This document shows positions 55,138 to 59,386 of a stretch of DNA of 64,000 bases, in pieces. Numbering within the stretch: position 1 is the stretch's first letter; every line of letters begins with the position of its first letter. This DNA comes from Commensalibacter oyaizuii. GTDB taxonomy: Bacteria > Pseudomonadota > Alphaproteobacteria > Acetobacterales > Acetobacteraceae. Made by a program: the position numbers and the translations under genes. Below the pieces are notes generated by a model. The model was not told the origin of the DNA. It saw only the letters and a program-made list of their open reading frames with translations, and did not search any database. The stretch covers positions 1,989,501-2,053,500 of the forward strand of contig NZ_JASBAO010000001.1 of assembly GCF_029953265.1 (NCBI RefSeq). Direction: 5' to 3'.

Positions 55138-56202
55138 ATGAAAATAGATACACGAAATTTGATCGGAACATTACAAGGACCAATCAAATTTCGTGTTTTT
55201 TTATTATATGGCGAAAATACGGGATTGGTTCGCGAGCGTGCTGCTTTTATGGTCAGGAAAGTAGCTGGACGATTGGATGATCCTTTTTTAGTTTGCGTAT
55301 TGGATAAAGATGAGCATTTCCGATTATTAGAGGAAGCAACAGCTTTATCTCTGATGGGCGGACAGCGTGCAGTATGGGTCAGAGAAGGAGGAGATACATT
55401 AACCAAGCCCTTAGAAGAGTTTTGTGCTTTATATCCCAAAAACGCAATTGATCCCGCGACATTTGATAGTGTTGTGATTATTGAAGCTTCTAACCTTTCC
55501 CCTAGATCCTCTTTACGTATTCTAGCAGAAAAACATCCTTTGATTGCGTCTGTTCCCTGCTATGCGGAAACAGGGCGATCTTTAGAGGAAACAATACGAT
55601 ACTTACTTGGTAAAAAGCATATAGCTTCTGAAGCTTTTCGTTATTTACTTTCAGTATTGGGCACCGATAGGGCTTTAATTCGTAATGAGATTGAAAAATT
55701 ATTGCTCTATGTTGGACAAGAAAATACAATTACTCTTGATGATGTTCAGCAAGCTATTGGGGATGGTGGAGAATATTCACCTGAAGATATCGTATACGCT
55801 GCAATGTGCGGTCAAATTGTTGTAGCAGATCGTGCATTCGATCGTGCTATGAAAGAGGGGATGGCCATGATTGCATTAGTACGAAGCCTATTATATTTTG
55901 TTGATCGTTTATTGCAGGCTCGATTTATGGTAGAAAATAGTATTCCTGCCAAGACAGCAATTTCTAAGTTAAACCCTCCTGTTTTTTTTAAACGAACAGA
56001 AAGTTTTTTGAAGGCACTAGATATTTGGCATGTTAATCGTTTATTTGCTTTGTTACGATATGTTCAAAAATTAGAACAGTTGTGCAAGCAAACGGCAGTT
56101 CCTGTTGAATTATTATGTCAGCATTTTATTTTAACGCTTGCCCAACATGCCAAAGATAAAAAAAAACTTTTAAATGAAAGCAAACTCTTTTCAAATTTAT
56201 AA
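55138..56202 (+). CDS. holA: DNA polymerase III delta subunit
   Basis: Wrench subunit of the clamp loader that opens the beta sliding clamp. The 354-residue protein has the beginning FRVFLLYGENTGLVRERAAF, which replaces the P-loop in this non-ATPase AAA+ relative, then SLMGGQRAVWVREGGDTLTK and the helical domain III (about 220-345). The C-terminal collar domain carries PVELLCQHFILTLAQHAKD. It ends the leuS-lptE-holA unit, a conserved alphaproteobacterial order. The tRNA-Arg gene begins 22 bases later. Confidence 0.9.
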   Translation: MKIDTRNLIGTLQGPIKFRVFLLYGENTGLVRERAAFMVRKVAGRLDDPFLVCVLDKDEHFRLLEEATALSLMGGQRAVWVREGGDTLTKPLEEFCALYPKNAIDPATFDSVVIIEASNLSPRSSLRILAEKHPLIASVPCYAETGRSLEETIRYLLGKKHIASEAFRYLLSVLGTDRALIRNEIEKLLLYVGQENTITLDDVQQAIGDGGEYSPEDIVYAAMCGQIVVADRAFDRAMKEGMAMIALVRSLLYFVDRLLQARFMVENSIPAKTAISKLNPPVFFKRTESFLKALDIWHVNRLFALLRYVQKLEQLCKQTAVPVELLCQHFILTLAQHAKDKKKLLNESKLFSNL

Positions 56203-56224: not shown

Positions 56225-56534
56225 GTCTGCGTAGCTCAGCAGGATAGAGCACAGGATTCCTAAATATAATTGGGCGCTTTATTAGGAAACTATAAAGTGG
56301 ATTCACTCTAATTCGGGGGAAGTTTCGGTAATCTCAACCATACCAATCCCGAGCCAAGTCTGATCGAATGATTAGAAAGGTGTAGAGACTGTACGGGTGA
56401 TGCCTAAGGGATATAAATATCCTAAGGTAAAGAGACAGTCCAGCTTACAAACATTGTTTTTGATAACAATGGCGATGAAAATCGTGGTGAGATGAATCCT
56501 GGGGTCGTGGGTTCGAATCCCGCCGTGGACACCA
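56225..56534 (+). tRNA. tRNA-Arg (CCU) interrupted by a group I intron
   Basis: Two exons, 56225-56261 and 56495-56534, join into a 77-nt tRNA. Acceptor stem GTCTGCG pairs with CGTGGAC (two G-U pairs), followed by A73 and encoded CCA. The D arm reads GCTC...GAGC, the anticodon stem CAGGA / TCCTG, and the loop TTCCTAA gives CCU. The T arm is GTGGG-TTCGAAT-CCCGC. The gene is split after U36, the last anticodon base. Group I introns in tRNA-Arg(CCU) are known from Agrobacterium, so this is a recognised but uncommon situation. Confidence 0.93.
56262..56494 (+). ncRNA. Group I self-splicing intron, 233 nt, IC3-like
   Basis: The 5' exon ends in U and the intron ends in G, the group I hallmark. GGG at 56272-56274 can act as internal guide: it pairs with the CCU end of the exon, with a U-G wobble at the splice site. 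P2 is CTTTAT / ATAAAG (56277-56297). P4-P6 region contains CCCGAGCCAAG. P7 is GACTG (56387) with CAGTC (56436), flanked by AGAGAC segments. P8 is GGATAT-AA-ATATCC. The 3' part has a CATTGTT / AACAATG hairpin and a GAAA tetraloop on CGAT / ATCG. No homing endonuclease is encoded. The layout resembles the cyanobacterial tRNA-Leu intron. Confidence 0.88.
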
Positions 56535-57667: not shown

Positions 57668-59386
57668 ATGACATGTTTTATAAATCATCAAGTTATAATG
57701 GTGCCTGAACTGTGTAATGATGACAAAGATCTTACTTTACAGTGCAGAGCTCCTGACGAAGCAGTTATTTATCAATTTTCTTTAGCACAACGCTTGTCGC
57801 CAATGGACAAAATTTTGTCTGTTTGTGCGTATCCATCTGATCGTAATATTATTGTTGATATGATTACGGTTTTTGGGCAAACTTTTAAAGTAAGGATAAG
57901 TGGTGGAAGAGCAGGTACCAAAAGTAAAATTCGTTTCTTTGTTAAAACACGTAATTGTGAAACACGCGAATTTTGTGTATTTTCATGTATTTCGTCATCT
58001 TATTGTTGCAGCAATCACCAATATAGCGATTGTGATGTAAATTACGAGCAAAATCATCACTATAATTATCACCATGATCACAATAATTGCTGTATTCATG
58101 ATAATGGCTCACTAAACCACACGCATTCCCCATGTGATAAAGCCCCTACTATTAAAGTGGGTGAAGTTAAAGTAACAGAACCAGGTGAAAAACCACAAGT
58201 TGTGAATGTAGGTACTAGTACACATGCTGTATTAGATTTTGTCCTACCCCGTGGTATAGCGGGGTCAAATGGAAAGGATGGTACACAAATTGTTGCTGCA
58301 GAGAGAGACCCATCAGAGGCAGATACGGAAGAAAATGCACTTTGGTTAAATAGTTTAACAGGGGATTTGTTTCAACGTTACGTTGGTTGTGGTTGTCAGC
58401 AAGGATGGTACAAGGTTGGAAATCTAAAGGGTGATACAGGTGCACAGGGCCCTCAAGGTCCACAAGGTGAAAAGGGTGATACAGGTGCACAAGGTTCAAA
58501 AGGAGATAAGGGTGACACTGGAGAGAGAGGTACAAGCTACGTTAATGATGGAACTGTTGATTTAAACGTTAAATCAATCAATAAAAATGCATATTTGAAC
58601 GTTGATCTACATGACGGTGTTCCCAGTCCTTATCAAATTACAGTAAATGATTTATATCAGCTGTCTTCAGGTAGCAATATTAAACCCTTTAGTCCAGATA
58701 AAGGAATTGATAACCTTTTGGCATTGACAACAATGAATAAAATTGAAGAATTGAGTGGTGTTTTTCTGGTAGGAGGGGCAACGTGGATACCAGCCGCATC
58801 GCCATTGGAATTTAAAGGATATCAAGGAACTTATATATTTGGTTGTTATGGTGCAGACTTAGAACAGTCTGGTTATCAAATCAAAACGAATTTGGTTTGT
58901 GAAAATGAAGCAGATGATGGGAAAGGAGAAGCTTTTAAAGAAGATGCGATTATTACGCTAAGAATTGGCGATATTTTAATATTAACAGCTCAGTGGTTTG
59001 ACAATGATCGATTATATTATCATGCTAGACGCAGTCGATCTGCGACATTATTAACAGACATCTTTTTGTCGGGTAAAGCAGCCCCTACAACATTATCATC
59101 GAAAGGATATTTAAACGAAATTCGGTTAGGGAATGATGGAATATATTATTGCCAAAAAGAAGGCGGTGACGGCAGTGCACAATGGCAACAATATCCATCG
59201 CTAGCTAAACTTTCAGATGGTTCTGTGGCTTTGAATGCAAATAGTCTTGTCTTATCAGATACAAGTGAAGTGCAAGCTGAAAATCTAGTGATTGGTAGAC
59301 AAGCCTTTAGTAAAGCACTAAAAAAGCCTTGTTGGTGGGATGGAAAACAATGGGTAGATGCCCTTGGTAATGTTATTACCATATAA
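57668..59386 (+). CDS. Collagen-like repeat protein with His/Cys-rich segment
   Basis: A 572-residue mosaic protein. Residues about 1-105 form a beta-rich module (LCNDDKDLTLQCRAPDEAVI). Residues about 113-155 are unusually rich in His, Cys, Tyr and Asn (HHYNYHHDHNN, CC pairs) and could bind metal. Then come a VKVTEPGEKPQVVNVGTSTH / AVLDFVLPRGIAG segment typical of phage tail-fibre or spike proteins, and Gly-X-Y triplets at about 254-292 (GDTGAQGPQGPQGEKGDTG), a collagen-like triple-helix stretch. The C-terminal half has WLNS-type fibre modules. No signal peptide is seen, so export or a phage-like release route is unclear. Likely a fibrous surface or phage-derived structure. Confidence 0.65.
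   Translation: MTCFINHQVIMVPELCNDDKDLTLQCRAPDEAVIYQFSLAQRLSPMDKILSVCAYPSDRNIIVDMITVFGQTFKVRISGGRAGTKSKIRFFVKTRNCETREFCVFSCISSSYCCSNHQYSDCDVNYEQNHHYNYHHDHNNCCIHDNGSLNHTHSPCDKAPTIKVGEVKVTEPGEKPQVVNVGTSTHAVLDFVLPRGIAGSNGKDGTQIVAAERDPSEADTEENALWLNSLTGDLFQRYVGCGCQQGWYKVGNLKGDTGAQGPQGPQGEKGDTGAQGSKGDKGDTGERGTSYVNDGTVDLNVKSINKNAYLNVDLHDGVPSPYQITVNDLYQLSSGSNIKPFSPDKGIDNLLALTTMNKIEELSGVFLVGGATWIPAASPLEFKGYQGTYIFGCYGADLEQSGYQIKTNLVCENEADDGKGEAFKEDAIITLRIGDILILTAQWFDNDRLYYHARRSRSATLLTDIFLSGKAAPTTLSSKGYLNEIRLGNDGIYYCQKEGGDGSAQWQQYPSLAKLSDGSVALNANSLVLSDTSEVQAENLVIGRQAFSKALKKPCWWDGKQWVDALGNVITI

Follow-up and report, generated by a model that had tools for sequence, protein, structure and literature searches.

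A group I intron, predicted to be self-splicing, in the tRNA-Arg(CCU) gene of Commensalibacter oyaizuii and its relatives in the Acetobacteraceae

How can a tRNA gene that is interrupted next to its anticodon still give rise to a tRNA, what is the interrupting sequence, and how did it come to be there? These questions are raised by a locus in a 64,000-nucleotide stretch of the Commensalibacter oyaizuii genome (hereafter the window). ARAGORN, run with introns allowed, identified on the forward strand (position 56225 to 56534) a tRNA-Arg(CCU) gene with a 233-nt group I intron inserted after U36, at the site used by the alphaproteobacterial tRNA-Arg(CCU) introns (Table 1). A first-pass annotation had given exactly these coordinates, this tRNA and this break. 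Joining the exons yields a 77-nt tRNA-Arg(CCU) fold with an encoded CCA; the annotation had called this product perfect, which holds for its length and fold and is slightly strong in view of two G-U pairs in the acceptor stem and one in the T stem, all accepted by ARAGORN. We propose, with a probability of about 0.95, that the precursor tRNA-Arg(CCU) transcribed from this gene excises its group I intron by itself, and that the intron is inherited with the tRNA gene within the genus.

Table 1. Features of the interrupted tRNA-Arg(CCU) locus (window coordinates)
Feature	Position	Strand	Basis
holA (DNA polymerase III subunit delta), just upstream of the split tRNA	55138..56202	+	NCBIfam TIGR01128, E-value = 3.4e-45
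tRNA-Arg(CCU) 5' exon, ends with anticodon C34 C35 U36	56225..56261	+	ARAGORN, introns allowed
Group I intron, 233 nt, last base G (omega-G)	56262..56494	+	ARAGORN; RF00028; covariation
UUGGG, guide GGG pairs with exon CCU, U-G wobble at splice site	56270..56274	+	written-out structure
P2 hairpin, GAAA loop	56275..56299	+	main helix: two-sided changes at 7/9 pairs; 89% of cells paired
P3 5' strand UCACUC, partner 56395-56400	56303..56308	+	two-sided changes at 3/6 pairs; 100% paired
P4-P5-P6-P6a domain	56313..56381	+	structure model and covariation
P7 5' strand GACUG, partner CAGUC 56436-56440	56387..56391	+	structure model
P8 hairpin with CCUAAG motif	56401..56429	+	two-sided changes at 3/4 basal pairs
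P9, P9a, P9b; GAAA loop closes P9b	56444..56491	+	two-sided changes at 6/7 (P9a) and 4/4 (P9b) pairs
tRNA-Arg(CCU) 3' exon, CCA encoded	56495..56534	+	ARAGORN

The covariance search that the annotation had proposed as a check (Rfam 15, focused on 401 bases) matches the full model of the group I intron family RF00028 (Intron_gpI) at position 56252 to 56460, with 70.9 bits (cut-off 50, E-value = 3.3e-18). Among 4227 Rfam families, and up to an E-value of 1, the only other match is a piece of tmRNA in the T arm, below its cut-off. A whole-genome search recovered the RF00028 match at a single place. At gathering cut-offs, a scan of the whole window listed just the two other tRNAs and lacked the intron. 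We take this miss to be an effect of the Rfam speed filters, since RF00028 was found both by the focused scan and in the whole-genome search; by itself, the whole-window scan would have led to a wrong rejection of the intron. The default ARAGORN run over the same 64 kb likewise reported a tRNA-His and a tRNA-Leu and missed the split tRNA-Arg(CCU).

Upstream of the split tRNA lie leuS and holA, with an LptE-like gene (just below the Pfam cut-off) between them. The same intron, at the same site and directly after holA, is present in all four sampled genomes of the genus, including that of the window; in these Commensalibacter loci the HolA sequences (60-73% identical) end just upstream of the split tRNA. 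The gene order holA-split tRNA also occurs in four loci of other genera (L006, L021, L025, L029), and in the remaining loci of other genera either leuS adjoins the split tRNA or neither leuS nor holA lies within reach. A pattern scan of named genomes returned 15 stretches. Four of them come from Commensalibacter (C. melissae, C. papalotli, C. communis and one uncultured member), seven from Gluconobacter, and one each from Bombella dulcis, Acidomonas methanolica, Pseudomonas matsuisoli and a betaproteobacterial MAG. ARAGORN named a split tRNA-Arg(CCU) in 12 of the 15; two end at a contig end, and the Pseudomonas stretch carries another tRNA. This last locus (L108) contains a related intron, which by eye seems to cut a CAU-anticodon tRNA after U33; ARAGORN read this tRNA as Leu(UAA). 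In a phylogenetic analysis, the window intron groups with the Commensalibacter introns (support 100/99), its core being 87% identical to that of the C. communis intron. Downstream of the split tRNA, a 572-aa ORF (57668-59386) exhibits a podophage fibre-adaptor domain (PF23148) and collagen repeats; no tblastn match to it was found in the other loci compared for synteny.

The comparison of the same tRNA gene in relatives, also proposed as a check, gives a patchy picture outside the genus. We surveyed 200 genomes of the Acetobacteraceae, covering 102 genera. RF00028 matches occur in 49 of these genomes (above the cut-off in 11, with strict filters), and some of the places are other tRNAs. From 51 places we obtained 30 family loci, 24 of which have tRNA-Arg(CCU) as host according to ARAGORN, with L018 read as a 25th. 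Five others (L002, L010, L011, L023, L024) carry the same intron type in other tRNA genes, namely Asn(GUU), Leu(CAA), Leu(UAA), Thr(GGU) and probably Lys(UUU), the latter read by eye where ARAGORN gave SeC; the Leu(CAA) intron cuts after U33, not after the anticodon. By pattern search, the 5' half of tRNA-Arg(CCU) is found in 171 of the 200 genomes and an exact intact anticodon arm in 97, the difference being 74 genomes in which the 5' half lacks an exact intact counterpart. Of these, at least three (G097, G129, G193) look intact, so that interrupted genes number at most 71. Such a patchy site requires gain or loss of the intron within the family. In a wider sample of 385 genomes of the class, RF00028 was found in 31. 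None of the 26 newly fetched class loci has tRNA-Arg(CCU) exons at the junctions printed by ARAGORN, which found no split tRNA in three of them.

We then compared 65 intron cores, the rows of the tree being picked by hand. They comprise the window intron, 29 family loci, nine of the 15 named-genome stretches as Arg together with L108, 18 of the 26 class loci, less two that yielded no core, and, from the viral records described below, two Arg loci and seven others of 80 loci. Labels of Leu and Lys hosts were assigned by eye where ARAGORN differed (e.g. L080, L084, L086, L088, L091, L093, L097, L023). The host tRNA labels cluster on this tree, with 10 changes as against 27.4 in shuffles. The long-branched P. 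matsuisoli tRNA is the one non-Arg row placed within the Arg group; a single clade of the 36 Arg rows is not rejected (p-AU = 0.367). When six long-branch rows (one of them Arg) are left out, all 35 Arg rows form one clade (support 100/98, in 200 of 200 counted bootstrap trees). In this reduced tree the window intron thus shares its descent with the other Arg(CCU) introns sampled, the Agrobacterium and Bartonella sequences being outside the tree, and stands apart from the sampled proteobacterial and viral tRNA-Leu introns (100/98). The annotation had likened the order of the core segments to that of the cyanobacterial tRNA-Leu intron; the tree, which does not include cyanobacterial introns, speaks for the Arg(CCU) group instead.

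Did the intron reach Commensalibacter recently, for instance through transfer of a tRNA gene copy or through reverse splicing into tRNA-Arg(CCU)? Several observations point that way. The patchy site just described (97 of 200 genomes with an exact intact match, 74 with the 5' half only) is one. Another is that the 65-row tree places two viral-collection Arg(CCU) introns among rows of the Acetobacteraceae, and horizontal transmission was reportedly argued by Paquin 1999 (to go by the title). Against such an arrival, all four sampled members of the genus carry the intron after the same gene, and a constraint that unites the 34 Acetobacteraceae rows to the exclusion of the two viral-record introns is not rejected (p-AU = 0.143, 34 vs 11 rows). 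Intron distances also correlate with those of neighbouring proteins, with r = 0.90 for HolA (8 loci) and r = 0.74 for LeuS (11 loci), each with 0 of 2000 permutations, the loci being hand-picked from those carrying the neighbour gene. These correlations suggest that the intron mostly travelled with its gene. We consider a recent horizontal arrival in the genus unlikely; transfer of the intron between families is possible. The earlier remark that spread would need a route other than an endonuclease is fair, but among the loci compared the pattern is mainly one of co-divergence with the neighbouring genes.

One such route would be recombination at the tRNA gene, which would carry the intron between bacteria along with its flanking exons and with no endonuclease. 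The anticodon stem CAGGA was found in 61 of the 63 genomes listed from the group of 74 defined above (5' half present, exact intact match absent). Since G129, one of the 61, looks intact, as do the two exceptions (G097 and G193), 60 CAGGA genomes remain. Among the intact genes, the CAGGA stem occurs in 56 of 97 genomes (ancestry being uncontrolled). Its presence in all 60 is as if exon sequence had travelled with the intron; the same stem pattern could arise from shared ancestry alone, and not all of the 60 genomes were read as introns. We regard this mode of spread as quite improbable.

The viral records themselves deserve a closer description. The Arg(CCU) intron occurs in two IMG/VR records. 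One of them (L239, L240) contains a prophage bounded by a 49-bp direct repeat and adjoining the split tRNA-Arg(CCU). By eye, the repeat is apparently the 3' part of a neighbouring tRNA with a UCU anticodon. The prophage thus sits in that neighbouring tRNA, and the split tRNA lies outside the prophage. The second record exhibits no repeat in the ends examined. Phage carriage of this intron is not claimed. At blastn sensitivity plasmids gave no match; a match to one phage record covers the first 40 bases only, that is, the 5' tRNA half, and was set aside. As regards a prophage integrated at this tRNA in the window itself, the tRNA 3' end (26 bases, allowing up to 3 mismatches) does not recur within the 64 kb. 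More broadly, the intron core pattern occurs in at least 120 stretches of IMG/VR. Of 80 such stretches (L117-L196), 41 lie in tRNA genes according to ARAGORN, 21 of them Leu(UAA); it assigned no tRNA gene to the other 39, a few of which appear to be missed tRNAs or chance matches. In six loci (L119, L120, L137, L140, L150 and L155, of which L120 and L140 look identical) an intron sits at the same place of one phage gene, which by eye reads about EQIEDLLNNTTVTSADFN.

The intron sequence exhibits the anatomy expected of a group I ribozyme. Our structure model comprises P1, P2, P3, P4, P5, P6, P6a, P7, P8, P9, P9a and P9b together with the four tRNA stems, and all pairs of P1 to P9, with the P3/P7 pseudoknot, are standard in the window sequence. 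The P3-P9 core is likewise covered by the full RF00028 model. Covariation was assessed on 23 of the 25 Arg(CCU) genes among the 30 family loci, two with large insertions being omitted. In this alignment 95.8% of 2111 cells are paired, and 47 of 93 pairs exhibit two-sided changes. With the partners slid by 1-3 columns as a control, 33-41% of cells are paired and 15-27 pairs have two-sided changes, a comparison in which the structure, being drawn on the window sequence, is favoured over its slid versions as to cells paired. The observed covariation score was equalled in 0 of 500 shuffles, and the number of pair types in 1 of 500. The core helices P3, P4, P6 and P7 are paired in 100% of cells. 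P4, P6 and P7 are invariant in all 23 sequences and hence uninformative for covariation by themselves; P3 covaries. P7, which we take to be the guanosine-binding helix, reads GACUA/UAGUC and GACUU/AAGUC in introns of other tRNAs (alignment of the family loci). Two-sided changes occur at 6/6 pairs of P5 and 7/7 pairs of P6a. Pairing is weaker in P6a (82% of cells), in the upper part of P8 (83.5%) and at the top of P2. As an RNA, the intron folds better than its shuffled versions (0 of 200 as good, z = -2.45). The U-G pair at the 5' splice site within P1 is present in all 23 sequences, and the last intron base, placed by ARAGORN, is an invariant G. The stems P2, P7, P8 and P9, the GAAA tetraloop, the terminal G and the GGG guide with its CCU pairing and U-G wobble, all named beforehand in the annotation, were thus recovered. 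The motif in P8 presumably resembles a GAAA-loop receptor. In the UUGGG segment, the UU lengthens P1 by pairing with intron bases 1-2, or else it could form P10 with AA of the 3' exon; judged from the letters, the AUU preceding the guide could pair with the AAU of the 3' exon as P10. The longest stop-free stretch of the intron is 40 codons, into which no homing endonuclease fits, so that, as the annotation had it, this is not an endonuclease-encoding homing intron.

The data show the sequence, its host gene, a structure that is conserved and covaries, and the distribution of the intron; the splicing itself, any help from a protein and the use of the tRNA are inferred. The intron would fold into a group I ribozyme and bind guanosine in P7. 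The guide would hold the exon CCU, with U-G at the 5' splice site, where guanosine would cut. The freed exon end would then attack after the last intron G, so that CCU becomes joined to AAUCC and the anticodon loop is re-formed. Once spliced, the tRNA is predicted to read AGG codons. Lacking an endonuclease, the intron would be inherited with the tRNA gene inside the genus and gained or lost in the wider family. The anatomy fits the ordinary two-step splicing of group I introns, as presented in a review (PMC3984707).

The annotation had named a second intact tRNA-Arg(CCU), were it the only expressed copy, as a finding that would refute its reading. No such copy was found in the genome (2.41 Mb in 7 contigs). 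None of its 45 RF00005 matches is another tRNA-Arg(CCU) according to ARAGORN, the Arg anticodons found being UCU, CCG and ACG. In a BLAST search with the joined exons the best places are the two halves themselves, with no other CCU copy; identity drops to 82% across some 60 bases at the next places, and 24 identical bases are shared with one other tRNA. Neither Ala(UGC) nor Ile(GAU) genes were seen among the tRNA matches; the assembly may therefore lack repeats and could hide a tRNA gene.

The interrupted gene might alternatively be a dead copy whose intron no longer splices, AGG being read by tRNA-Arg(UCU). A tRNA-Arg(UCU) gene is indeed present and might read AGG by wobble, so that the split tRNA may be dispensable. 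AGG codons are rare, accounting for 45 of 16740 in 40 mechanical ORFs across the window. Between positions 56000 and 56900, the single promoter-like match lies downstream on the minus strand (56830-56803; shuffles average 5.4), with none upstream on the tRNA strand, and neither of the two terminator-like matches follows the split tRNA on that strand. Yet every exon stem is kept, all modelled pairs are standard, and P3, P4, P6 and P7 pair in every cell across the 23 sequences, where decay is expected of a dead gene; we judge a dead copy highly improbable. That the insert is an intervening sequence of some other kind, protein-spliced or group II, is hardly credible: its place by the anticodon is often that of protein-spliced tRNA introns (PMC4033280), but the RF00028 match covers the full model, the sole other Rfam match is the tmRNA piece, and covariation supports the P3 pairing of the pseudoknot.

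The self-splicing tRNA intron preferred here is mostly an ordinary finding: the kind is known, and within the literature searched no text joins Commensalibacter with a group I intron or describes this particular member. Two points give it wider interest. A default ARAGORN run and a whole-window Rfam scan can both overlook a tRNA-Arg(CCU) gene of which no other copy is found in the genome, and the mixture of intact and interrupted genes across 102 genera provides a good set for studying gain and loss of endonuclease-free introns. The paper on tRNAscan-SE 2.0 states that group I introns in tRNA-fMet and tRNA-Ile2 cause missed bacterial tRNAs (PMC8450103).

Several known systems can be set beside the window intron. 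The tRNA-Leu(UAA) group I introns, several of which are among the alphaproteobacterial class loci, have the same core motifs, but are inserted after U34 instead of U36 and stand apart from the Arg rows in the tree. The window intron, assigned by Rfam to RF00028, presumably resembles subgroup IC3. The Azoarcus tRNA-Ile(CAU) intron of that subgroup shares with it the small core, a guide of three bases and a pair of GAAA loops, although it resides in another tRNA and another class of bacteria. The split tRNA-Arg of Asaia bogorensis shares with the present case an Acetobacteraceae host; likened here by description, it is, within the literature searched, the precedent linking this family of bacteria, a group I intron and a tRNA. 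Closest in host tRNA and splice site are the introns of Agrobacterium tumefaciens and Bartonella bacilliformis (BbgpI), which likewise interrupt tRNA-Arg(CCU) with CCU at the splice site, but belong to another family of the class and are likened by description. The annotation had picked the right family in citing the Agrobacterium precedent: introns in tRNA-Arg(CCU) are already known from Agrobacterium, other alphaproteobacteria and Bartonella, and self-splicing has been demonstrated for the Bartonella relative (PMC7717549). To this known family of self-splicing tRNA introns, Commensalibacter and other Acetobacteraceae are now added.
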